This document shows positions 4,022 to 49,555 of a stretch of 52,871 nt of DNA, piece by piece. The first letter of the stretch is position 1. Each line of letters opens with the position of its first letter. The DNA comes from Ectobacillus panaciterrae DSM 19096 (lineage in GTDB: Bacteria; Bacillota; Bacilli; Bacillales; Bacillaceae_G). The position numbers were made by a program, and so were the translations under genes. The notes beneath the pieces are model-generated. The model did no database searches and was not told the DNA's origin. It saw only the letters and a list, made by a program, of their open reading frames with translations. The stretch covers positions 1 through 52,871 of the forward strand of contig NZ_KE387254.1 of the NCBI RefSeq assembly GCF_000430785.1. Direction: 5' to 3'.

Positions 4022-5123
4022 ATGGAATTGGTAGAAATTAGACAAGAGCTTGAAAAAATGGCTAAGCGATTAGCTGACTTTAGGGGGTCTCTTTGACCTC
4101 GCTAACAAGCAAACGCGCATTGAAGAGCTAGAGGAAATCATGATGGGTCCGACGTTTTGGGATGACCAGCGCGGCGCTCAAACAGTTATTAACGAAGCGA
4201 ACGCACTAAAAGATATGGTAGGAAAATTCACAGATTTAAGTGAAACGTATGAAAACCTTGAGCTTACTCATGATCTTGTAAAAGAAGAATATGATGAAGA
4301 ATTAAAAGACGAGCTTGAAATAGAAGTAAAACGCCTGCTCAATGAAATGAATGAGTATGAGCTGCAGCTTTTATTGAGTGATGAGTACGATAAAAACAAT
4401 GCCATTCTTGAATTACATCCAGGCGCCGGCGGAACAGAATCACAGGATTGGGGTTCAATGCTGCTTCGTATGTATACGCGTTGGGCGGAGAAGAGAGGCT
4501 TCAAGGTTGAAACGCTTGACTATCTTCCTGGTGACGAAGCGGGAATCAAGAGCGTTACGCTGCTCATTAAAGGCCATAACGCATACGGTTATTTAAAAGC
4601 GGAAAAAGGCGTTCACCGTCTTGTTCGTATTTCGCCGTTTGACTCTTCAGGCCGCCGTCATACATCCTTCGTTTCATGCGAAGTCATGCCTGAATTTGAC
4701 GAAAATATTGAAGTTGATATACGCACAGAGGACTTGAAGATCGACACATACCGTGCAAGCGGTGCGGGTGGACAGCACATCAATACGACGGATTCCGCTG
4801 TTCGTATTACGCATACTCCGACGAATACGGTTGTCACATGTCAGTCTGAGCGTTCTCAAATCAAGAACCGTGATAGAGCAATGAAAATGCTGCAAGCGAA
4901 GCTGTACCAAAAGAAATTGGAAGAACAACAGGCGGAGCTGGATGAAATTCGCGGTGAGCAAAAGGAAATCGGCTGGGGAAGCCAAATCCGCTCATATGTA
5001 TTCCATCCGTATTCTCTCGTGAAAGATCACCGCACAAGCACGGAGGTCGGAAACGTACAAGCTGTGATGGACGGAGAAATCAATGCGTTCATCGATGCAT
5101 ACTTGCGCTCCCGCATTTCCTAA
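4022..5123 (+). CDS. prfB: Peptide chain release factor 2 (programmed +1 frameshift)
   Basis: RF2 recognises UGA and UAA and releases the finished peptide. The first 24 codons (from ATG 4022) end in CTT-TGA at 4091-4096. An internal Shine-Dalgarno-like AGGGGG lies just upstream, and shifting +1 to read CTT-GAC continues into the long frame to 5123. This is the classical RF2 autoregulatory frameshift: low RF2 gives slow UGA decoding and more shifting. The body shows the ISPFDSSG recognition loop and the [13 protein letters not shown] catalytic GGQ. An annotation starting at 4140 would miss the true N-terminus. Confidence 0.95.
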
Positions 5124-5124
5124 G

Positions 5125-5395
5125 AAAAGCGGAATCGGCTTGGTCAGCTCCGGAAGGCAGAGGTTCTTCACCCAAAAAGGCGCTTTTTGCCTTTATGGGT
5201 GGAGGTTCTCTGACAGGAGGAGCTAGCCGATGGAGCTGGACACCAAGAAAAGCGGAGCCGGCTTGCCCAGGCGCAGAACCTAAGGTTCTCCGCCCTAAAA
5301 GGCGCTTTTTGCCTTTTTGTGGCGGAGGTTCTTAGGTGGCAGCGCCTAGCCGATGGAGCTGGACACCAAGAAAAGCGGAGCCGGCAGCGCCGGAC
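5125..5395 (-). repeat. Family A palindromic intergenic repeat, copy 3 (inverted, two units)
   Basis: Read on the minus strand this block shows the same modules as the other copies: GGTGTCCAGCTCCATCGGCTAG, GAACCTCCGCC, AAAGGCAAAAAGCGCC and GAGCCGG...CGCTTTTC. Two units lie head to tail. One unit carries the CTCCTCCTGTCAGAGAACC variant also seen in the composite copies near 40.8 and 49.1 kb. Confidence 0.85.
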
Positions 5396-7978: not shown

Positions 7979-8861
7979 TACCTTTACTCGACATTTGCGC
8001 GAAGGCGTCAAGAGTCTGGCTCGTAACGGCTGGATGACGTTTGCCTCTGTCAGTGCAGTAACAATTACATTATTGCTTGTCGGCGTATTTTTAGCTGTTA
8101 TTATGAATATGAACCATTTTGCGTCCAAGGTAGAAAAGGACGTAGAGATTCGTGTGCACATTGATCCTGCTGCTTCAAAAGAGGATCAGAAAGCCTTAAA
8201 AGCGAATATAGAAAAAATTTCACAGATAGAATCCATTAAATATTCTTCTAAAGAAGCAGAGCTGAAGCGTGTCATTAAAAGCTTTGGAGACACTGGAAAG
8301 TCCTTTGAGCTGTTTGAGCAGGACAATCCGCTGAAGGATGTATATATTGTGAAAACAAAGCAGCCGCGTGATACGGCAAATGTTGCAGCAAAAATCGAGA
8401 AATTGAATTATGTCAGCAACGTACAGTACGGAAAAGGAGAAGTTGAAAAGCTGTTCAGTACTGTAAAGGTCGGACGAAATATCGGAATCGTATTGATTGC
8501 CGGTCTCTTATTCACGGCAATGTTCCTGATTTCCAATACAATTAAAATTACGATTTATGCAAGACGTACAGAAATCGAAATCATGAAGCTTGTCGGCGCG
8601 ACAAACTGGTTCATTCGCTGGCCGTTCTTGCTTGAAGGCTTATTCCTTGGTTTCCTAGGCTCCTTGCTGCCAATGGTGCTAATTATGTCAGCATACAGCT
8701 CTGTGCAGTCTGTACTGCAGGAAAAATTTGCGGGCACTATTTTTGAATTGCTTCCATACAGCCCGTTCATATTCCAATTGACAGGTCTGCTCATTTTAAT
8801 CGGCTGCTTAATCGGCATGTGGGGAAGCGTTATGTCCATCCGTAAATTTTTGAAGGTTTAA
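7968..8861 (+). CDS. ftsX: Cell-division ABC transporter permease FtsX
   Basis: The product has 297 residues with the FtsX topology: a cytoplasmic N-terminus, a first membrane helix (about 22-46), an extracellular loop (about 47-165) that in the family binds the hydrolase partner, and three further helices in the C-terminal half. The ATG at 7968 is preceded by GAGGGAGG and lies inside the end of ftsE. A hairpin with a short T run at 8920 may end the unit. Confidence 0.95.
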   Translation: MKANTFTRHLREGVKSLARNGWMTFASVSAVTITLLLVGVFLAVIMNMNHFASKVEKDVEIRVHIDPAASKEDQKALKANIEKISQIESIKYSSKEAELKRVIKSFGDTGKSFELFEQDNPLKDVYIVKTKQPRDTANVAAKIEKLNYVSNVQYGKGEVEKLFSTVKVGRNIGIVLIAGLLFTAMFLISNTIKITIYARRTEIEIMKLVGATNWFIRWPFLLEGLFLGFLGSLLPMVLIMSAYSSVQSVLQEKFAGTIFELLPYSPFIFQLTGLLILIGCLIGMWGSVMSIRKFLKV

Positions 8862-12672: not shown

Positions 12673-12816
12673 ATGGACGCTTTAGATCGAAAAGTGCTTG
12701 AGGTGCTGATGAGAAACGGCAGAACAACTTGGGCGGAACTGGCGCAGGAGCTTGAATTGTCCGGTCCTGCCGGGCGTAAGAAAAACAAGAACCACTATTG
12801 TCATGGATTCGTGTAA
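12673..12816 (+). pseudogene. N-terminal fragment of an Lrp/AsnC-type regulator
   Basis: After a good ribosome site (GAGGAGGGGAG) the frame reads MDALDRKVLEVLMRNGRTTW followed by AELAQELELSGPA, a classical Lrp/AsnC helix-turn-helix start. It then turns into an unrelated basic tail (GRKKNKNHYCHGFV) and stops after 47 residues, where a full protein would have about 150. The ligand-binding half is absent. This is probably a 3' deletion scar of the regulator of the adjacent exporter. Confidence 0.75.
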
Positions 12817-12879
12817 GGAGAGCCCGGTGTTTCCGCTTTTTGAAGGCAAATTTACAGAATAAGCATAAAATGAAAGTTT

Positions 12880-13014
12880 GGATAGTAAATGTGTGAATTT
12901 GGATAATAAATGGTCCAAATTGGATAGTAAGTGCATCATTTCGGATAATAAATGGCCTAAGTCGGATAATAAACGGTGCAATTTGAGAGATGAAGCGTGA
13001 AAATTTGAGGAAAC
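12880..13014. repeat. 21-bp tandem repeat array
   Basis: The string GGATAATAA or GGATAGTAA begins at 12880, 12901, 12922, 12943 and 12964, exactly 21 bases apart. Degenerate units follow at about 12985 and 13006. The consensus is roughly GGATARTAARTGNNNNAWTTY. The period equals seven codons and two DNA helical turns. There is no non-repetitive spacer of CRISPR type. Confidence 0.85.
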
Positions 13015-13236: not shown

Positions 13237-13418
13237 TTATATATAAATGATTTATAATTTCGACGTTTTCATTTGCTATTTCGAACAAAACGGCATTGGC
13301 ACTTACTTCCTCTCTCTGGTTTACCCTTGCATGAACCAAGGGTTTGACCGCTTCTGCACGTCGCCGGATGCTCTCGCCCCACTATAAAAAGACGATTTTT
13401 TTATTCAGTTTTATATAG
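13237..13418 (-). mobile_element. Family B MITE-like element, copy 1
   Basis: This 182-bp element is bounded by TTATATATAAATGA on the left and ATTCAGTTTTATATAG on the right, which are inverted relative to each other. Its interior (minus strand) carries AAAAAATCGTCTTTTTATAG, GAAGCGGTCAAACCCTTGG and TTCATGCAAGGGTAAACC, shared with the copies at 17.9, 35.2 and 41.9 kb. It encodes no protein. No clear target duplication is seen. Confidence 0.85.
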
Positions 13419-13966: not shown

Positions 13967-14059
13967 AATTACAAAACAACTTCATTTTAACAAAAATTTA
14001 TAATTTTCAACTAAAATAGTATATAATTTGTTTGAACAGAGATGTTCATACAACTAAAC

Positions 14060-14265
14060 AGAAACAGGTGTCTTCTTTCTGGAATACTGAAAAGGGAAGT
14101 TGGTGAAATTCCAACGCGGTCCCGCCACTGTAAATGGGAGCAATCTGCAATGGTCCACTGTACAAGCGAGTACGGGAAGGCGCAGAGAGCGATGATCATA
14201 AGCCAGGAGACCTGCCTGATTTTGTGCACCGAAAAACCTACGAGGATAGGAGTCCGGCCAGCTTA
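14060..14265 (+). ncRNA. Cobalamin (adenosylcobalamin) riboswitch
   Basis: The conserved core is easy to see: GGAAGTTGGTGAAATTCC, GCGGTCCCGCCACTGTAA (14115-14132) and the B12 box AGCCAGGAGACCTGCC (14201-14216). Binding of adenosylcobalamin should favour the terminator at 14308-14336 and shut off the uptake operon. The ends given are approximate. A TATAAT at 14022-14027 is a possible -10 of the promoter, with only a weak -35. Confidence 0.95.
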
Positions 14266-14360: not shown

Positions 14361-15335
14361 ATGATGAAGAAGCTGTATGCACTATTATTTGCGCTATTGT
14401 TGTCAATCGGGATGCTGGTTGGCTGCAGTAACGAGTCCGGTTCCGCGAAAAACAATGCCGGCGGAGAAAAACAGACGCCACAGAACGAGAACACTGCTTT
14501 TCCAGTTACTGTGAAGGATGCGGCGGGTGAAAAAGTAACAATAAAAGAAAAACCTAAGAAAATTGTATCGCTTATTCCAAGCAACACAGAAATTGCTTTC
14601 GAGTTAGGTTTAGGAGATAAAATTGTCGGAGTATCCGATTTCGATAACTATCCGAAAGAAGCGGCTAGCAAAGAGAAGGTTGGTGGTCAGGAAATGAATT
14701 TAGAAAAAATCATTTCTTTAAAACCGGACTTAGTTCTTGCCCACGCGTCAAGCGCTCATAATTCTGCGAAGGGACTTAAACAATTAAGAGATGCGGGTAT
14801 TGCCGTGCTTGTTGTAAATGACGCAAAAAGCATTCAGCAAGTATATGAATCTATTGAAACAATCGGCCGCGCAACAGGCGAGAAGGAGAACGCCGATCAT
14901 GTTGTCAAAAGCATGAAAGAAAAGATAAAAATGATTCAAGCTGAAGCGGCCAAAATAAAAGACGTAAAGACAGTATTTGTTGAAGTATCGCCTGCCCCTG
15001 AAATTTACACAGCGGGGAAGAACACGTTTATGGATGAAATGCTGAGCATCATCAATGCGAAAAATGCGGCTGGCGATTTGGAAGGCTGGAACAAAATTGA
15101 TCTGGAAGCAGTAGTGAAACGCAATCCAGATGTGATTGTTACGACCTATGGGTACTATGTAAAAGATGCAGCAGCACAAGTGTTGAATCGAAAAGGCTGG
15201 CAAGAGGTGAATGCGGTGAAGCAAAAGCGGGTGGTGGATGTAAATTCTGACATTGTAACCCGTTCCGGCCCAAGACTTGCCGAAGGAGTAGAGGAACTTG
15301 CAAAGGCTGTTTACCCTGAAACTTTCAAAAAATAA
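14361..15335 (+). CDS. btuF: Vitamin B12 ABC transporter substrate-binding lipoprotein
   Basis: The 324-residue product starts with a lipoprotein signal (lipobox LVGC, Cys22) and continues as a class III periplasmic-binding fold with the KKIVSLIPSNTEIAFELGLG opening typical of BtuF/FecB-type proteins. It should capture corrinoids outside the membrane and pass them to BtuC. Position directly behind a cobalamin riboswitch strengthens the B12 assignment over siderophore binding. GGAGG precedes the ATG at 14361. The end overlaps btuC by 38 bases. Confidence 0.92.
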   Translation: MMKKLYALLFALLLSIGMLVGCSNESGSAKNNAGGEKQTPQNENTAFPVTVKDAAGEKVTIKEKPKKIVSLIPSNTEIAFELGLGDKIVGVSDFDNYPKEAASKEKVGGQEMNLEKIISLKPDLVLAHASSAHNSAKGLKQLRDAGIAVLVVNDAKSIQQVYESIETIGRATGEKENADHVVKSMKEKIKMIQAEAAKIKDVKTVFVEVSPAPEIYTAGKNTFMDEMLSIINAKNAAGDLEGWNKIDLEAVVKRNPDVIVTTYGYYVKDAAAQVLNRKGWQEVNAVKQKRVVDVNSDIVTRSGPRLAEGVEELAKAVYPETFKK

Positions 15336-16356
15336 GACAGGCATCGCTTATTTGACGGCGGGGAGCTTTCTGGTGGCCGCCGTGCTTTTAGGCATATCAA
15401 TCGGAACGGTATTCGTTCCGATTGATGCCATCCTCCGCATTATAGGAACAGACATATTGCGTTTGCCTATGGGAAACGCTGATCCCATGTATACGAGCAT
15501 CGTGCTGAATATCCGGCTGCCGAGGGTCGTATTGGCGGGGCTGGTAGGGGCTTCTCTTGCGATTGCAGGTGCAGCTTTTCAAGGGCTTTTGCGAAATCCG
15601 CTGGCAGACCCTTATACGTTGGGAGTTTCATCCGGAGCATCTGTAGGAGCGGTCTTAACTTTGTACTTTCATCTTGCGCTTCCAGTTGTGGGAATCTATA
15701 CACTGCCTTTGCTCAGCATTCTGGCCTCATTCACTACCATTTTGCTCGTAGTATGGTTTGCCCGAAAGATCGATCGATTCATGAAAGTGGAAACGGTTAT
15801 TTTAACGGGTATTATTTTCAGCTCTTTTTTAGGGGCCTTCATCTCGCTCATGATTGCCTTGGCAGACGAGGAATTGATGCAGATTATCGGCTGGCTGCTT
15901 GGAAGCGTTTCCGCCCGAGGCTGGGAGTATGTCGGAATCATAGCCCCTTTTACTGTCATTGGCTCCGCTGTCATGATGATATGTGCCCGCGATTTGGACG
16001 CTATGTCTTTCGGAGAAGAGCAGGCGCGGCATTTGGGCGTGAACGTGCAAAGAAAGAAGCTGCTGATTTTAATCGCAGGTTCCATCTTGACCGGCGCTGC
16101 TGTTTCTGTATCGGGAACAATTGGTTTTATAGGGTTGGTGATTCCTCATTTGACAAGGCGGTTATGGGGAGCGAATCATAAGCATCTACTGCCTCTTTCC
16201 GTTTTGACAGGAGGCGGCTTTTTAGTGCTGGCTGATTTAGTATCGCGAACCGTTATCGCACCGACGGAACTCCCGATCGGGGTTATTACAGCTCTGATCG
16301 GAGCGCCTGCATTTGCCGCCATTTTATTAAGAAGACGCAGAGAAAGAAGAGGATAA
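15298..16356 (+). CDS. btuC: Vitamin B12 ABC transporter permease
   Basis: This 352-residue FecCD/BtuC-family permease has about ten membrane helices. Conserved stretches include RLPRVVLAGLVGASLAIAGA and GTIGFIGLVIPHLTRRLWG, the latter being the cytoplasmic coupling region that contacts the ATPase. The TTG at 15298 has AAGGAG and GAGG upstream and lies inside the end of btuF, implying coupled translation. The partner ATPase follows after two bases. Confidence 0.9.
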   Translation: MQRLFTLKLSKNKTGIAYLTAGSFLVAAVLLGISIGTVFVPIDAILRIIGTDILRLPMGNADPMYTSIVLNIRLPRVVLAGLVGASLAIAGAAFQGLLRNPLADPYTLGVSSGASVGAVLTLYFHLALPVVGIYTLPLLSILASFTTILLVVWFARKIDRFMKVETVILTGIIFSSFLGAFISLMIALADEELMQIIGWLLGSVSARGWEYVGIIAPFTVIGSAVMMICARDLDAMSFGEEQARHLGVNVQRKKLLILIAGSILTGAAVSVSGTIGFIGLVIPHLTRRLWGANHKHLLPLSVLTGGGFLVLADLVSRTVIAPTELPIGVITALIGAPAFAAILLRRRRERRG

Positions 16357-16358
16357 AG

Positions 16359-17822
16359 ATGCTTAGTGTGCAGCATGTTACCGGAGGATATGCGGAAGAG
16401 TCCGTTTTGCATGATATCTCCTTTGATGTGGAAATGGGCGAAATTCTTGGGATATTGGGTCCGAATGGCAGCGGCAAGACGACGCTGCTGAAGATGCTCA
16501 GCGGAGTTTTGCCGTATGAGCGGGGAAGCATTGCGATAAAGGAACGGGCGCTTTCCGGCTACTCGCCCAAACAATTGGCTAAGGTGGTAGCGGTTCTCCC
16601 GCAGCATCAATCACAGGCCTTTTCTTATACAGTAAAAGAAACAGTCTCTCTCGGACGTTATGCTCATCAAAAGAGCTGGCTTCATACATGGAGCGAAGAG
16701 GACGAAGAAGCGGTGCAAAGGGTCATGAATCAAACCGGAATCTCCTCTTTTCAGCATCAATTCATCCATGAACTGTCCGGCGGTGAGAGACAGCGGGTGT
16801 TTTTGGCGCAAGCTCTTGCGCAAGAACCGGAAATTTTGTTATTAGATGAACCGACAAATCATTTAGATCTTTCTTTTCAAAAGGAGCTATTGGATTCACT
16901 GCAGCGCTGGACCGATGAATACGGGCTGACGGTGATTTCCATTTTTCATGATTTAAACCTGGCCGGATTGTATTGTGACAAGCTGTTGCTTTTACAAGAC
17001 GGAATGATTAATATGTATGGCAATGTCAATGAAGTGCTTCGGGAAGAACGGATTAAGACAGTCTATCGGACGAATATTAAGAAGCATGCTCACTCAAAAG
17101 TGCCAAAGCCACAAATGCTCCTGCTCCCTGAGGAACAGGATGAAAGACACATCCGTATAGACGAATCCCTTTTAAACATATCCAGCGAGATCATTTCACT
17201 TCAGTCCCCCGCCCCGCTTCGGACGTTGTCCTCGGCAGTTATCGGCTCTGGAACCGGCTGGCATCAAACGTTTGTCAATCGCCATGTGCATCTTGGCTAT
17301 GATTGTGATAATCATCGCGATGAGATGACCGCCTATTTAAAAGCTAAGGGCTATGAACCAGAAGAAACAGTCGGCATGATGACAGCAGCCGCTTTAAAAG
17401 ACGTTTCATTCCGTTTATATGAACAGGATGGATTCTCTGTATTTATTGTTGTAACCGCCGGACTGACAAATGCTGTAGACGCATCCAGAAGCGAATGTCA
17501 TGTTTTTAAAGCAGATCCCGGAACTATTAATACATGGGTGTTCGTAAATGGGGAACTGACGGAGGAAGCTCTTGTTCAAAGCATCGTGACAGCTGCGGAA
17601 GCGAAGACGAAGGCGCTGCATGACCAACAAGTCACGGATTCTGTAACCGGCACGCTGGCGACCGGCACTTCTACGGACAGTATCTTGATTGCGGCCACTC
17701 AAAGAGGGAAACTGCTTGAATTTGCGGGAAGCATTGCTCCGTTAGGAAAGCTGATTGGAAAAGGCATATATGAATGTACGACAGACGGCGTACGAAAATA
17801 TAAGAAGAGGATGCAAACATGA
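16359..17822 (+). CDS. BtuD-CbiZ fusion: B12 transporter ATPase fused to adenosylcobinamide amidohydrolase
   Basis: The 487-residue product joins two enzymes. Residues about 1-250 are an ABC ATPase (Walker A GPNGSGKTT, signature LSGGERQR, Walker B EILLLDEPTNHLDL). Residues about 290-480 match CbiZ, with VVTAGLTNAVDA, GTINTWVFVN and TGTSTDSILIA. CbiZ cleaves the aminopropanol arm of adenosylcobinamide to give adenosylcobyric acid, which needs CbiB for re-entry into the pathway. In this operon cbiB is destroyed (see 17819-18118), so the CbiZ half is puzzling. Both domains look intact. Confidence 0.88.
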   Translation: MLSVQHVTGGYAEESVLHDISFDVEMGEILGILGPNGSGKTTLLKMLSGVLPYERGSIAIKERALSGYSPKQLAKVVAVLPQHQSQAFSYTVKETVSLGRYAHQKSWLHTWSEEDEEAVQRVMNQTGISSFQHQFIHELSGGERQRVFLAQALAQEPEILLLDEPTNHLDLSFQKELLDSLQRWTDEYGLTVISIFHDLNLAGLYCDKLLLLQDGMINMYGNVNEVLREERIKTVYRTNIKKHAHSKVPKPQMLLLPEEQDERHIRIDESLLNISSEIISLQSPAPLRTLSSAVIGSGTGWHQTFVNRHVHLGYDCDNHRDEMTAYLKAKGYEPEETVGMMTAAALKDVSFRLYEQDGFSVFIVVTAGLTNAVDASRSECHVFKADPGTINTWVFVNGELTEEALVQSIVTAAEAKTKALHDQQVTDSVTGTLATGTSTDSILIAATQRGKLLEFAGSIAPLGKLIGKGIYECTTDGVRKYKKRMQT

Positions 17823-17899
17823 TGTTTTATCACCTGATTGCAATCACTGTAGTTTTTATCATCGATTTAGTTATCGGAGCACCGCCTATATACAAGTGA
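17819..17899 (+). pseudogene. cbiB: cbiB remnant: N-terminus only, cut by a family B element
   Basis: The ATG overlaps the btuD-cbiZ stop (ATGA). The frame reads MMFYHLIAITVVFIIDLVIG and then APP, which resembles CbiB N-termini (hydrophobic helix followed by the (I/L)GDPP motif; here GAPP). At base 17886 the family B element CTATATACAAG begins and the frame stops at a TGA inside it. A complete CbiB has about 320 residues. CbiB attaches aminopropanol (phosphate) to adenosylcobyric acid. Confidence 0.75.
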
Positions 17900-18063
17900 A
17901 TAAAAAACCGTCTTTTTATAGAGGGGAAAGCGCATCCAACTAAGCGTAGAAGCGGTCAAACCCTTTTCGTGGCCCATGCAGGGAGAGGGAGCGAGCGCAG
18001 TTTCCCTTTTGTTCTACGTGGCAAACGATAGATATGTCGGAATAAAAAAGTGGACTTATATAG
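17886..18063 (+). mobile_element. Family B MITE-like element, copy 2, at the cbiB-cobD deletion scar
   Basis: The 178-bp element runs from CTATATACAAGTGAATAAA to ACTTATATAG. It shares AACCGTCTTTTTATAG and GAAGCGGTCAAACCC with the other copies, but its middle and right part are more diverged. It separates a cbiB N-terminus from a probable cobD C-terminus, which suggests that recombination between two copies removed what lay between. Confidence 0.85.
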
Positions 18064-18118
18064 TTACGATTTACCATTAAAAGTTTTGAACAGAATGGCA
18101 GATTAATGGGGGGAGAAC
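18064..18118 (+). pseudogene. Probable C-terminal remnant of a cobD-type aminotransferase
   Basis: Directly after the element one frame reads RFTIKSFEQNGRLM, which resembles the C-terminal motif of class I/II aminotransferases of the HisC/CobD group (R-x-T-I-x-x-x-E-Q-N-x-R-L). In related Bacillus B12 operons, as I remember them, cobD (threonine-phosphate decarboxylase) sits between cbiB and cobU, which is exactly this place. The identification rests on about 14 residues and the context. Confidence 0.45.
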
Positions 18119-18697
18119 ATGGCGACAGATACATCATTGATTTTTATTACCGGGGGCGTTCGCAGCGGCAAAAGCACATATGCCGAAAGAATTGCCGCTT
18201 GTCTGGCTGAAAGAACGGATGGCAATCTTCACTATATCGCTACCGGATACGCTTCAGACCAAGAGATGAAATCTCGAATCGCTTGTCACCAAAAGCAGCG
18301 CGCCGAAAGCCCCCGCCCCTGGCGAACGTGGGAACAGTCTGTACATATTCATAAGCTTGCTCCTTATTATGGCTCAGATGATATTGTACTGCTCGATTGT
18401 ATAACTACGCTTGTAAGTAATGAGCTGTTTAGCAGCGAAGAGCGCTGGAAGGATAAGGACGGACAAAGGGCTGTGAAGCAAGCCGTTTTAGAGGGGATTT
18501 CAGAAATACGAAAAAGAAGCAAAGTTTTGATTGTTGTCAGCAACGAAGTGTTGCACGAACCGATCCATCACAACGAACTGGTTGTTGTGTACGGAAAATT
18601 AATCGGTCAATTGCACCAACATTTAGTGAAGGAATGCACCCAGGCATATTTGGTCGAGGCGGGTATACCTATTTTGATGAAAGGAGAGCCGATATGA
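18119..18697 (+). CDS. cobU: Adenosylcobinamide kinase / adenosylcobinamide-phosphate guanylyltransferase
   Basis: The 192-residue product carries the P-loop GGVRSGKS (about 12-19), the HQKQR segment and the LLDCITTLVSN Walker B-like stretch typical of CobU. It phosphorylates adenosylcobinamide and then forms GDP-cobinamide for CobS. GGGGGGAG precedes the ATG. The stop overlaps the cobS start (ATGA), showing that this part of the operon is intact. Because CobU can accept imported cobinamide directly, salvage may survive the loss of cbiB. Confidence 0.93.
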   Translation: MATDTSLIFITGGVRSGKSTYAERIAACLAERTDGNLHYIATGYASDQEMKSRIACHQKQRAESPRPWRTWEQSVHIHKLAPYYGSDDIVLLDCITTLVSNELFSSEERWKDKDGQRAVKQAVLEGISEIRKRSKVLIVVSNEVLHEPIHHNELVVVYGKLIGQLHQHLVKECTQAYLVEAGIPILMKGEPI

Positions 18698-19485
18698 AAC
18701 TCATTAAGGGTTTTCTTATTAACGTCCAGTTTTTCACCTCTATCCCAATCCCGATACAGCTGGAGATGGACAGAGAACATCTTGGCAAAGCGGTGAAGAC
18801 ATTTCCGCTGCTCGGGTTATTTCAAGGATGCATATATGCGGGTATATTATATGTTTTTTTACATTGGACTCCTTTTTCATCTTTAACGGCTGCTTTTGCG
18901 GTTTGGCTCGCTGCCATTCTTTTGACGGGAGGCATTCATCTTGACGGCTGGATGGATGCAAGCGATGCTTTCTTTTCTTACCGTGACCAAGAAAAAAGGC
19001 TGGAAATTATGAAGGACCCGAGAACGGGAGCGTTTGGAGTTATTTCTATTATCATATTATTAAGCAGCCGCTTTTTGTTTATCTATGAGATTACGTTGCA
19101 TACTCAAGCAATCTCTTATATTTTTATAGCCATGATCCCGTTCTTGGGGAAAGAGATTATGGGCGTTCTTCTTTTAAGGGTACAAGCTGCAAAAGAAGAG
19201 GGATTGGGCTCTTTATTCAAACAGGCAGCGGCTCCCGGAACGCTTTGGATATACGCAGGCTACGCAGTTGCTTTCCTGCTTTTGGCGGGGCTGTTCAACA
19301 GGGAGGCGGTATTAGGAATCGTTATCTTATTATTGGGGGCATTGTTCCTTCTTTGGGTTATATCTAAGAAAATTGTAAAGTGGTTTGGCGGAATCACGGG
19401 CGATGTGTTGGGAGCGTCAGTGGAAGGAACGGAGGCGGTATTATGGATGATTGTGTGGTTATTGCATTATTTCGTCATGGCCTGA
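18694..19485 (+). CDS. cobS: Adenosylcobinamide-GDP ribazoletransferase (cobalamin synthase)
   Basis: The 263-residue membrane protein shows the CobS core GGIHLDGWMDASDAFFS and KDPRTGAFGVISI, with several hydrophobic helices. It joins GDP-cobinamide with alpha-ribazole to finish the lower loop of cobalamin at the membrane. The ATG at 18694 overlaps the cobU stop by four bases; longer in-frame starts would run through cobU. Its 3' end overlaps cobC by 43 bases. Confidence 0.93.
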   Translation: MKLIKGFLINVQFFTSIPIPIQLEMDREHLGKAVKTFPLLGLFQGCIYAGILYVFLHWTPFSSLTAAFAVWLAAILLTGGIHLDGWMDASDAFFSYRDQEKRLEIMKDPRTGAFGVISIIILLSSRFLFIYEITLHTQAISYIFIAMIPFLGKEIMGVLLLRVQAAKEEGLGSLFKQAAAPGTLWIYAGYAVAFLLLAGLFNREAVLGIVILLLGALFLLWVISKKIVKWFGGITGDVLGASVEGTEAVLWMIVWLLHYFVMA

Positions 19486-20063
19486 CAGAAGACAATAAAA
19501 GACATGCTTATTTAGGATGGACCGATTCTCCTTTATGTCCCTTGGAGGAGCAGAGGCTGCGCGGGCGGATGCTGTCCCATACTTATGAGCATCTCTTCTC
19601 CAGCGATCTTGGCCGTTGTTTAGAGACGTTAAACCTTCTATTTTCTGGAGCTGCTCCAAAGCTGGTGCCTGAATTTCGTGAAATGCATTTTGGCAGATGG
19701 GAAGGAAAAACGTACGGGGATTTAGAGCGGGATGCAACATATCGAAATTGGTTGGAAAATCCGTTTACACTCTCCCCTCCAGGCGGGGAGGCATTTTCTT
19801 CTTTCTCTGACAGAGTGCGAGCAGGCTGGGAAAAAGTATTTCATCACATATGTGATACAGGTGAAAATGCAGCTATTATGACACATGCAGGAGTTATTCG
19901 ATATTTATTATCAGAGTTTGCTCCGGAAAGAAAAGAGTTTTGGGAATGGAATATTCCCCACGGGATGGGTTATGAGCTTGTTTGGACGAAAGACGCATTC
20001 AGGAGGCGAGAGCGATGCACTTTGTTACGGGAGGCGCCTTCAACGGAAAGGCGTCATGGGTAA
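19443..20063 (+). CDS. cobC: Histidine phosphatase, probable alpha-ribazole phosphatase
   Basis: The 206-residue product belongs to the histidine phosphatase superfamily: the catalytic RHG motif sits at the start (VIALFRHGLTEDN), followed by SSDLGRCLETL, REMHFGRWEG and a second catalytic His in MTHAGVIRYL. In a B12 operon this is CobC, which removes phosphate from alpha-ribazole phosphate or cobalamin 5'-phosphate. ATG 19443 has GGAGG upstream. Both ends overlap neighbours, so expression is coupled. Confidence 0.85.
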   Translation: MDDCVVIALFRHGLTEDNKRHAYLGWTDSPLCPLEEQRLRGRMLSHTYEHLFSSDLGRCLETLNLLFSGAAPKLVPEFREMHFGRWEGKTYGDLERDATYRNWLENPFTLSPPGGEAFSSFSDRVRAGWEKVFHHICDTGENAAIMTHAGVIRYLLSEFAPERKEFWEWNIPHGMGYELVWTKDAFRRRERCTLLREAPSTERRHG

Positions 20064-20455
20064 AAGAGTATTATAGGTTAGAAGAACGAACAGACTTTCA
20101 ATGGATTTCCGCTTATCGGGGCGATGGAAATCCTGATGTTATAGACTCTATAAAGGGAAGGCTGCTAATCTTGGAGGGCATTGAAAAGTGGGTCAAGGAT
20201 GTTTGGATTGAGCATGACATTACCTTGTATAGAGAAGGATGGAAGAATCGATTAAAGCAATGGTATATATGGGAGAACGCACAGCCTGACCGAAGGCTTG
20301 TAATAATCGGGACCGACATTACCAAAGGAATCGTTCCGATGGAAGCGGGAGACAGAGAATGGCGCGATGCGACAGGCTGGGCATATCAAGAGGCAGCTGC
20401 AGCCGCGAAGCGCGTTGACCTTATTTGGTACGGTATACATCAGAGGATTAAGTAA
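20015..20455 (+). CDS. Short CobU-like P-loop protein
   Basis: The 146-residue product opens with MHFVTGGAFNGKASWVKEYY, a CobU-like nucleotide-binding loop, and contains LLILEGIEKWVKD in place of CobU's Walker B segment. It is shorter than CobU and lacks the HQxxR guanylyl-acceptor region, so it may be a kinase-only or accessory paralogue. ATG 20015 is preceded by AGGAGG and overlaps cobC. Similar second cobU-like genes occur, to my memory, in other Bacillus salvage operons. Exact activity is unproven. Confidence 0.7.
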   Translation: MHFVTGGAFNGKASWVKEYYRLEERTDFQWISAYRGDGNPDVIDSIKGRLLILEGIEKWVKDVWIEHDITLYREGWKNRLKQWYIWENAQPDRRLVIIGTDITKGIVPMEAGDREWRDATGWAYQEAAAAAKRVDLIWYGIHQRIK

Positions 20456-34265: not shown

Positions 34266-35216
34266 ATGATAAGAGAGAGAAAGCCCAAAATGGTCATTGT
34301 GGGCGGAGGGACAGGCTTATCCGTTCTCTTGCGCGGGTTAAAGAAATACCCGGTGGATATTACAGCCGTTGTAACCGTAGCGGATGACGGAGGAAGCTCA
34401 GGGAGACTTCGGGATGAAATGGAGATTCCGCCTCCCGGGGACGTGCGCAACGTCCTTGTAGCGTTGTCTGATGTAGAGCCTCTTGTGGAGGCTTTGTTTC
34501 AGCATCGCTTTACAGCGGGAGATTTATCAGGTCATGCCCTAGGCAATCTTCTGCTGGCTGGCATGACATCTATAACCGGAGACTTTTTCCACGCCATTAC
34601 AGAAATGAGCAAAGTATTGAATGTGAGAGGACGCGTATTGCCGGCAGCCAATCAAAGCGTGGTGCTGCATGCAGAATATGCCGATGGAACCACGGTAACC
34701 GGCGAATCAAAAATCCCGTATCGGGGAGAGAAAATCAAACGCGTGTTTCTGACTCCTGAACATGTAGAACCGCTCACAGAAACATTGAACGAAATCCGAA
34801 AGGCAGATTTGCTTGTGTTCGGTCCTGGGAGTTTGTATACGAGTATTTTGCCGAATCTGCTTGTTAAAAAAATCGGAGAAGCCGTTCTAAAAGCGAAAGC
34901 GAAGAAAGTATACGTCTGCAATGTCATGACGCAGGCAGGAGAGACAATGGGATATACGGCTTCTGATCATGTGCAGGCGCTTCATAATCATTTAGAGGAG
35001 CCGTTTATTGATACGGTGATTGCAAATAATGGAGATATTCCCGCGCACCTGCTGAAGCGGTATGAAAAAGAATTGTCAACTCCGGTTGTGTGCGATGCGG
35101 ATCGTTTGAAAGAAATGAACATTGCAGTCATTCAAGATATGCTGGCTAAGTACGATGATAATGTGGTTCGTCACGATACATTAAAACTGGCATCGATTTT
35201 ATATTCGTTGCTATAA
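34266..35216 (+). CDS. Gluconeogenesis factor YvcK (GlmR-type)
   Basis: The 316-residue product has the YvcK/CofD fold signature: GGGTGLSVLLRGLK near the N-terminus and TVADDGGSSGRLR (about 41-53). YvcK (GlmR) supports growth on gluconeogenic carbon and stimulates GlmS, linking carbon supply to cell wall precursor synthesis; it binds UDP-GlcNAc. A family B element begins at the base after its stop codon, so it is now separated from whiA by about 218 bases. Confidence 0.93.
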   Translation: MIRERKPKMVIVGGGTGLSVLLRGLKKYPVDITAVVTVADDGGSSGRLRDEMEIPPPGDVRNVLVALSDVEPLVEALFQHRFTAGDLSGHALGNLLLAGMTSITGDFFHAITEMSKVLNVRGRVLPAANQSVVLHAEYADGTTVTGESKIPYRGEKIKRVFLTPEHVEPLTETLNEIRKADLLVFGPGSLYTSILPNLLVKKIGEAVLKAKAKKVYVCNVMTQAGETMGYTASDHVQALHNHLEEPFIDTVIANNGDIPAHLLKRYEKELSTPVVCDADRLKEMNIAVIQDMLAKYDDNVVRHDTLKLASILYSLL

Positions 35217-35396
35217 CTATATACAAGTGAATAAAAAAAACCGTCTTTTGATAGTGAAGAGAGATCAAAAGACGTGCAGAAGCAGTCAAACCTTTGGTTC
35301 ATGCAAGGGTAAACCAGAGAGAAGAAGCATGCAATGCTCCCTTTTGGTTGCACATAGCACATGGAAATGTCAAAATTATAATTCACTCATATATAG
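35217..35396 (+). mobile_element. Family B MITE-like element, copy 3, between yvcK and whiA
   Basis: The 180-bp element begins CTATATACAAGTGAATAA directly after the yvcK stop and ends TTATAATTCACTCATATATAG. The termini are near-perfect inverted repeats (about 15 of 18 positions). Inside, CGTCTTTTGAT pairs with ATCAAAAGACG, a perfect 11-bp stem not present in the other copies. It sits within what is normally a tight operon. Confidence 0.88.
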
Positions 35397-37333: not shown

Positions 37334-37383
37334 GAATATTCCTCCTTTATTGGAAATAAGAAAGTAAAAAAACTTTGGGTAGA

Positions 37384-37505
37384 TGTCCAGCTCCGCCGGC
37401 TAGGCGCTGCCGCCTAAGAACCTCCGCCACAAAAAAGCAAAAAGCGCTTTTTAGGGCGGAGAACCTTAGACTCTGCGCCTGAACGAGCCGGCTGTGCTTT
37501 TCTTG
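37384..37505 (+). repeat. Family A palindromic intergenic repeat, copy 4, in the clpP leader
   Basis: A single unit reads GTCCAGCTCCGCCGGCTAGG, AAGAACCTCCGCC, AAAAAGCAAAAAGCGCTTTTT, GGCGGAGAACCT, GAACGAGCCGGCTGTGCTTTTC. It lies between the clpP -10 box (37522-37527, minus strand) and the clpP start, so on the minus strand it is transcribed as part of the clpP 5' leader. Confidence 0.88.
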
Positions 37506-37521
37506 GTAATCTCTCATTCAT

Positions 37522-40784: not shown

Positions 40785-41013
40785 GTCTAGCTCCTCCTGT
40801 CAGAGAACCTTCCCCCATAAGATGAAACTTCATCCATGGAGGTGATTTTCCTCCATGGATGTTAGTTGAATCAATCGGGCTCTTAGCGTCCGTTTGTCCA
40901 CCTTGTCTAAACATCTAAGTTACGGACGCTTAGAGCGGGATAAAGGCAAAAAGCGCCTTTTTGGGTAGGGAACCTCTGCCTTCCGGAGCTGACCGAGCCG
41001 GTTCCGCTTTTCT
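40785..41013 (+). repeat. Composite family A repeat carrying a nested family C element, copy 5
   Basis: Left part: GTCTAGCTCCTCCTGTCAGAGAACC then CCCCCATAA. Right part: ATAAAGGCAAAAAGCGCC, GGGAACCTCTGCC, GAGCCGGTTCCGCTTTTC. The family C unit (40821-40939) lies between them. The block sits inside the spore operon, between the lipoprotein and spoVAC genes. The same composite, with the same junctions, occurs at 49079-49318. Confidence 0.88.
40821..40939 (+). repeat. Family C bcr-like structured element, copy 2 (nested)
   Basis: The 119-bp unit starts GATGAAACTTCATC and ends TTAGAGCGGG, flanked by ATAA on both sides (40817-40820 and 40940-40943). It holds the hairpin ATCCATGGAGG/CCTCCATGGAT and a longer-range pair AGCGTCCGT/ACGGACGCT. 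Compared with the copies at 26.5 and 49.1 kb the hairpin sequence changes but pairing is kept. Confidence 0.85.
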
Positions 41014-41901: not shown

Positions 41902-42083
41902 ATATATACAAGTGAATAAAAAAACCTTTTTTATAGTGGGAAGAGATCATCCGGCGACGTACAGAAGCGGTCAAACCTTTGTAGTGGTTCATGCAAGGGT
42001 AGACCAGAGAGAAGAAGCATACCATACTCCCTTTTGGTTGCACATAGCACATGGACATGTCGAAATTATCATTCACTCTATAG
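41902..42083 (+). mobile_element. Family B MITE-like element, copy 4
   Basis: The 182-bp unit runs from ATATATACAAGTGAATAAA to ATTATCATTCACTCTATAG, with near-inverted ends. It shares GATCATCCGGCGACGT, AGAAGCGGTCAAACC, TTCATGCAAGGGTA and CTCCCTTTTGGTTGCACATA with the other copies. It lies between the spore operon promoter and the tRNA-Arg promoter. Confidence 0.88.
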
Positions 42084-49004: not shown

Positions 49005-49449
49005 CAGGGAAAATGCGCCTTTCTTGCAGGGAAGAACCTCTGGTTCTGCACCTGAACGAGCCGGTTGCGCTTTTCTTGGTGTCTAGCTCCACCGGCTAGC
49101 TCCTCCTGTCAGAGAACCTCCCCCCATAAGATGAAACTTCATCCGTGGAGATGATTTTTCCTCCACGGATGTTAGTTGAATCAATCGGGCTTTTAGCGTC
49201 CGTTTGTTCATCTTGTCTAGCATCTCTGTTACGGACGCTTAGAGCGGGATAAAGGCAAAAAGCGCCTTTTTGGGGAGAGAACCTCTGCCTTCCGGAGCTG
49301 AACGAGCCGGTTGCGCTTTTCAGTGGTGTCTAGCTCCACCGGCTAGGTGCTGCCACCAGAGAACCCCCGCCGCAAAAAAGGCAAAAAGCGCCTTTCTTGG
49401 TCGGGGAACCTCTGGTTCTGCACCTGAACGAGCCGGTTGCGCTTTTCTT
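49005..49449 (+). repeat. Family A repeat cluster, copy 6 (about three units, one carrying family C)
   Basis: Successive units share GCACCTGAACGAGCCGGTTG-CGCTTTTC, GTGTCTAGCTCCACCGGCTA and AAAGGCAAAAAGCGCC. The middle unit is the composite with family C nested between CCCCCATAA and ATAAAGGC. This is the densest family A cluster in the window and fills most of the gapA-pgk gap. Confidence 0.88.
49130..49248 (+). repeat. Family C bcr-like structured element, copy 3 (nested)
   Basis: This 119-bp unit has the same length and ends as the one at 40821, again with ATAA on both sides (49126-49129 and 49249-49252). Its hairpin reads ATCCGTGGAG/CTCCACGGAT where the other nested copy has ATCCATGGAGG/CCTCCATGGAT, a compensatory change that keeps pairing. 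Confidence 0.85.
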
Positions 49450-49555
49450 AAATATAAGCGGGACAAAATCCATCCAATGAAGTTCCGTTTTGCAGAAAAA
49501 TGTGGTAAGCTGATGAATGGGTTTTGTCAATCCAACCAAATCGGAGGGAAATCCA

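Follow-up and report, generated by a model that had tools for sequence, protein, structure and literature searches.

Between the btuD-cbiZ and cobU genes of a corrinoid salvage operon in Ectobacillus panaciterrae DSM 19096, we find the start of a cbiB gene, a single copy of a short repeat (termed family B) and the end of a cobD gene, at positions 17819 to 18118 of the analysed DNA (the window, 52,871 nt of contig NZ_KE387254.1). Intact cobD and cbiB genes lie side by side elsewhere in the same genome, on a contig designated C25, within a de novo cobalamin cluster. Judged from their sequences, the losses at these two riboswitch-led loci look reciprocal for cbiB, cobD, cobU, cobS and cbiZ. The window scar is a clean example of a type of event already known, with one copy standing between remnants of two different genes as in a repeat-mediated deletion. 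We infer both the mechanism and the order of events: the loss at this site probably came about by recombination between two family B copies. That one repeat family deleted complementary blocks at both scars and left two interdependent halves is a further possibility, which we regard as rather doubtful.

The salvage operon begins with a cobalamin riboswitch (14049 to 14233; Rfam RF00174, 124.9 bits) and continues on the same forward strand with genes for a BtuF-like corrinoid binding protein (14361 to 15335; PF01497, E 3e-36), a BtuC-like permease (15298 to 16356; PF01032, E 4e-94) and a BtuD-CbiZ fusion (16359 to 17822) that joins an ABC ATPase (PF00005, residues 17-167) to an adenosylcobinamide amidohydrolase (PF01955, residues 284-473). 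Beyond the gap lie intact cobU, as the initial annotation had stated (18119 to 18697; PF02283, E 5e-43), intact cobS (18694 to 19485; above the TIGR00317 cut-off) and a gene for a CobC-like alpha-ribazole phosphatase (19443 to 20063; PF00300) that scores 111 bits with TIGR03162, under the cut-off of 163. The last gene, cobU2, encodes a short CobU paralogue (20015 to 20455) that matches PF02283 at profile positions 70-167 only; it adjoins cobC in the operons of several relatives as well. From the riboswitch through btuF, btuC, btuD-cbiZ, cobU and cobS to cobC, the window matches the gene set and order of Bacillales corrinoid salvage operons. Such operons also carry cbiB and cobD between cbiZ and cobU, and of these the window has terminal stubs only. 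Upstream of the operon, a short frame in 12674-12982 that resembles the start of an Lrp/AsnC-type regulator stops a little ahead of a tandem repeat with a 21-base unit (12878-12982), as if truncated.

The left stub (17819 to 17886) consists of MMFYHLIAITVVFIIDLVIGAP plus two bases and overlaps the btuD-cbiZ stop in the manner of an operon gene start. A CbiB profile built from 46 distinct relatives matches it from profile position 1 with an E value of 2e-4, the top score among the 2854 stop-to-stop frames of the window. The CbiB-like N-terminus, first described as 23 residues long, is therefore 22 codons and two bases. It has drifted, reading GAP where the compared relatives read GDP. The repeat copy that follows (17887 to 18062, forward strand) was delimited by BLAST against the genome itself, alignment of copies and a motif count. 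It is complete at both ends, spans 176 bp beginning and ending with TATATA, and reaches the 178 bp originally reported when the flanking C and G are included.

The right stub (18063 to 18118) was at first called only probably cobD. Its frame, LRFTIKSFEQNGRLM from 18064, resembles the CobD C-terminus and continues open into cobU, to 18207; in Fredinandcohnia quinoae (L111), LRFAIKSTHENERLM stands immediately upstream of that organism's own cobU. A CobD C-terminal profile from 20 relatives places the stub first of the 2854 window frames at an E value of 0.04, which is weak alone. None of 2000 dinucleotide shuffles of the 54-base flank reached the real C-terminal score. With the full-length CobD profile, the stub was not among the window frames reported at E<5. 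The stub DNA can be aligned by eye with the L111 cobD end just upstream of cobU, and the same stretch also contains the cobU ribosome-binding region. In comparison with L111, again by eye, both stubs end within about one base of the element, in keeping with the description of stubs that border it exactly. Taken on its sequence, the cobD identity of the right stub would seem as well supported as that of such a short remnant can be.

Relatives indicate what is missing. Among the 29 nearest CbiZ loci fetched (L078-L106), 27 have cbiB directly downstream together with cobD, so that the comparison proposed in the initial annotation finds both genes at this position as well as stubs that align to them; the two exceptions (G181 and G038) have neither gene downstream of cbiZ and no CbiB match genome-wide. 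Six further loci (L107-L112) all have cbiB, and five have cobD. The sixth, from Peribacillus glennii (L107), lacks cobD, although a vestige of the gene's end may survive upstream of cobU (E 0.07). In Bacillus sp. CECT 9360 (L108), cbiB is read in two frames at 8162-8174, owing to a frameshift or a sequencing error. The interval absent from the window, sized on L109-L112, amounts to 1873 bp by L109, L111 and L112 and 1897 bp by L110, close to the 2 kb first estimated for a deletion leaving one copy; L152 also gives 1873 bp and is seemingly the same record as L111.

On C25, the CbiB and CobD proteins score above the TIGR00380 and TIGR01140 cut-offs, respectively, and share 67-68% identity with the de novo type of a congener (G002) and 37-46% with the salvage type of L111. 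Their cluster also encodes CbiX, CbiJ, CbiC, CbiD, tetrapyrrole methylases, CbiG, and CobT-type and CobO-type proteins, and is preceded by two tandem cobalamin riboswitches (L147 10084-10277 and 10504-10705). The order in the congener is cobD-cobU-cobS-cobC-cbiZ-cbiB, followed by a GHMP kinase gene that we take to be pduX. C25 is without the cobU-cobS-cobC-cbiZ block; what stands between cobD and cbiB there is, in this order, the short start of a cobU, two pieces of the repeat and the final codons of cbiZ, in which the frame is broken. The initial view that cbiB and cobD had been removed thus holds for the window operon and not for the genome, which retains intact copies beside a mirror-image scar. 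Loss of function as the outcome is ruled out by the same two genes. Contamination is very unlikely as a source of C25, because this contig bears the family B repeat, which is absent from 18 other genomes of the family.

Both sides of the C25 scar retain recognizable sequence. On the right, the DNA preceding cbiB matches all six sister-genus genomes compared (E 1e-14 to 4e-8), and in one of these (G013) the matching stretch reads as the end of cbiZ. Against the intact G002 cbiZ, the right remnant gives a blastn E value of 0.035, and none of 500 shuffles reached its score. All six sister-genus genomes preserve the final bases upstream of cbiB, which include its likely ribosome-binding site. On the left, blastn finds a 42-base match, 20 bases of which belong to the cobD end, at an E value of 0.024 in two genomes out of seven; the 36 bases past the cobD stop, the last four of them element, score higher against the cobU starts of six relatives than any of 2000 shuffles. 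The left remnant fades some bases before the element, and with its two repeat pieces this scar is less clean than that of the window.

Genome-wide profile searches returned one CbiB, one CobD over the cut-off, one CobS, one CbiZ and one full-length CobU. CbiZ, CobS and full-length CobU are encoded in the window operon only, and CbiB and the CobD over the cut-off on C25 only. CbiZ is reported to convert adenosylcobinamide, or pseudo-B12 in the case of the bacterial type, to adenosylcobyric acid, on which CbiB acts next (PMC3541065). Since CbiB and CobD come from C25 alone and CobU and CobS from the window alone, we infer that CbiZ-dependent salvage and de novo synthesis should each need both loci; neither cluster, as it now stands, is likely to be self-sufficient without the other. 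A swap of genes between the operons is ruled out, as CobU and CobS of the window resemble the salvage type more closely, and CbiB and CobD of C25 the de novo type.

The core motif of family B, with at most one mismatch, occurs at 351 sites in the genome (about one per 15 kb) and the reversed pattern at none, and the repeat is therefore no chance match. It was found in none of 18 other genomes of the family, and among 396 other genomes of the order, each represented in the scoring by just two candidates, one gave a single 37-base match. TATATA stands at both ends of the element, and by eye the adjacent inner bases are loosely alike. No target duplication beyond TATATA was recognizable when 22 copies were compared under 28 combinations of length and offset; of 500 shuffles, 31 and 34 reached the values of the two lowest combinations. 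C precedes 12 of these 22 copies and G follows 11; the window-scar copy has both. Among 48 distinct repeat blocks, the best BLAST matches from about 351 sites, one open reading frame of at least 90 amino acids enters an element and looks spurious, and insertions within genes thus look rare by a survey confined to frames that run into the element; the cbiB stub is shorter than 90 amino acids. A transcription terminator consensus has one match within the window-scar copy and 15 across the region, where shuffled sequences average 6.2. Folded as RNA the repeat gives a z-score of -1.94, with six of 200 shuffles as low, and as DNA -0.59.

Additional family B copies lie in the window at 13238-13417 (reverse strand), 35213-35395 and 41903-42078 (both forward strand). 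By eye, the ends of the two forward-strand copies and of the second C25 piece are unlike those of the window-scar copy, which suggests at least two end types within the family. A second repeat family (1-154, 952-1180, 5116-5393, 37348-37507, 40787-41012 and 49033-49452) is clustered on both strands of the window, with some copies approximately 123 bases apart.

In the model that we propose, the ancestor would have carried a salvage operon of the order btuF-btuC-btuD/cbiZ-cbiB-cobD-cobU-cobS-cobC and a de novo cluster ending in cobO-cobD-cobU-cobS-cobC-cbiZ-cbiB-pduX. With the two modules redundant, each could shed what the other retained: cbiB-cobD would have gone from the salvage operon, and cobU-cobS-cobC-cbiZ from the de novo cluster. 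In the window, family B copies in the same orientation, one at codon 23 of cbiB and the other immediately ahead of the final codons of cobD, would have recombined, and this single deletion would have left one repeat copy. Recombination between copies predicts complete repeat ends with abutting stubs, and the window junction fits. The account of the initial annotation, in which recombining repeats deleted the genes, agrees with the loss of cbiB and cobD and with the one copy at the junction; its two-copy intermediate is found in no relative, and the near-absence of the repeat from relatives explains why none is visible. Counting against recombination, duplication of TA by the element would call for a TAG at the right junction, at the place of the Trp codon TGG of L111, and cobD would then already have been broken.

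The repeat may instead have been a bystander, inserted later at a scar that an ordinary deletion had made by fusing cbiB to cobD under relaxed selection. We consider this unlikely, although such losses evidently do not require the repeat. In another genome of the family (G006) the salvage genes are lost; N- and C-terminal CobD fragments persist between cbiZ and cobU, a CbiB C-terminus was seen there by eye that the CbiB profile did not find, and the gap holds no convincing match to the repeat (best E 0.09). A single ancestral loss shared with G006 is ruled out, because its CobD N-terminus is absent here and the CbiB N-terminus is kept here. Similarly, six sister-genus genomes (G004, G010, G011, G013, G017 and G018), in which no copy of the repeat was found, have the cobU-cbiZ block at differing stages of decay; their loci (L041, L043-L045, L047 and L048) show graded decay of cobU-cobS-cobC-cbiZ between cobD and cbiB. 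In all nine sister-genus loci fetched, those of the six decayed genomes included, a cobU-cobS-cobC set lies outside the de novo cluster, and relaxed selection is therefore the likely common background of the losses. Later insertion is also consistent with the position of the examined repeats, which are almost always outside open reading frames, and with the flanking C and G of the window copy, the commonest bases at these sites. It would nevertheless require the insertion to strike the fusion point within about one base on either side.

A transposase-driven deletion next to one lone copy, situated in either cbiB or cobD and with no second copy involved, would likewise give complete element ends and abutting stubs; nothing favours this route over recombination, and we think it improbable. 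It is very improbable that the junction is an assembly artefact in which two true copies 1.9 kb apart were collapsed. The assembly is a draft of 189 contigs with 351 core-motif sites of a short repeat, which makes such a collapse conceivable, but the missing pieces were not found elsewhere in it (very short contigs may be missing) and its sole CbiB and CobD are nearer the de novo type. The GDP to GAP drift of the left stub argues in the same direction, as does the absence of de novo-type CbiZ, CobS and CobU as well.

In a census of 98 of 216 genomes with CbiZ, taken in rank order with the present genome excluded, cbiB was next to cbiZ in 76 (a count that takes in G047, G027 and G056), only elsewhere in two, not placed in six and absent from 14. 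The two genomes with cbiB elsewhere (G112 and G191, of one genus; L163-L166) show the opposite split, the de novo cluster holding cobD-cobU-cobS-cobC-cbiB together and the transporter being accompanied by cbiZ alone; the G112 contig ends 2.6 kb beyond cbiZ. The reciprocal split described here was seen in no other census genome, the six not placed being among the 98. One genome thus shows redundancy between salvage and de novo synthesis resolved by mirror-image losses with readable scars. Annotated alone, the window would lead to the salvage route being wrongly called broken, and C25 alone to the same error for the de novo route. Should the repeats have made the cuts, then the choice of the pathway half that an operon retains can be dictated by short non-coding elements.

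Family B resembles miniature inverted-repeat transposable elements in being small and present in many copies with TATATA at both ends; the target duplication that would be expected of such elements was not recognizable in 22 copies. It is also akin to the Bacillus cereus repeats bcr1-bcr18, which are described as short, interspersed, present in many copies and found in one lineage, and whose mobility is reportedly tied to a TTTAT motif (PMC6542083). Aligned family B copies differ from that description in ending in TATATA, with no duplication seen. Among the Bacillales salvage operons, for example that of F. quinoae, the likeness lies in the order of the kept genes and in the BtuD-CbiZ fusion, with 56% identity for CobU and 61% for CobS; the difference is that cbiB and cobD of the window are stubs flanking one repeat copy. 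A literature search revealed no published case that we recognized as this one. That genes made redundant by duplication or transfer may be lost reciprocally is a known concept, and here too each locus retains genes lost by the other. Unlike reciprocal gene loss in general, both scars in this genome bear copies of one repeat family.
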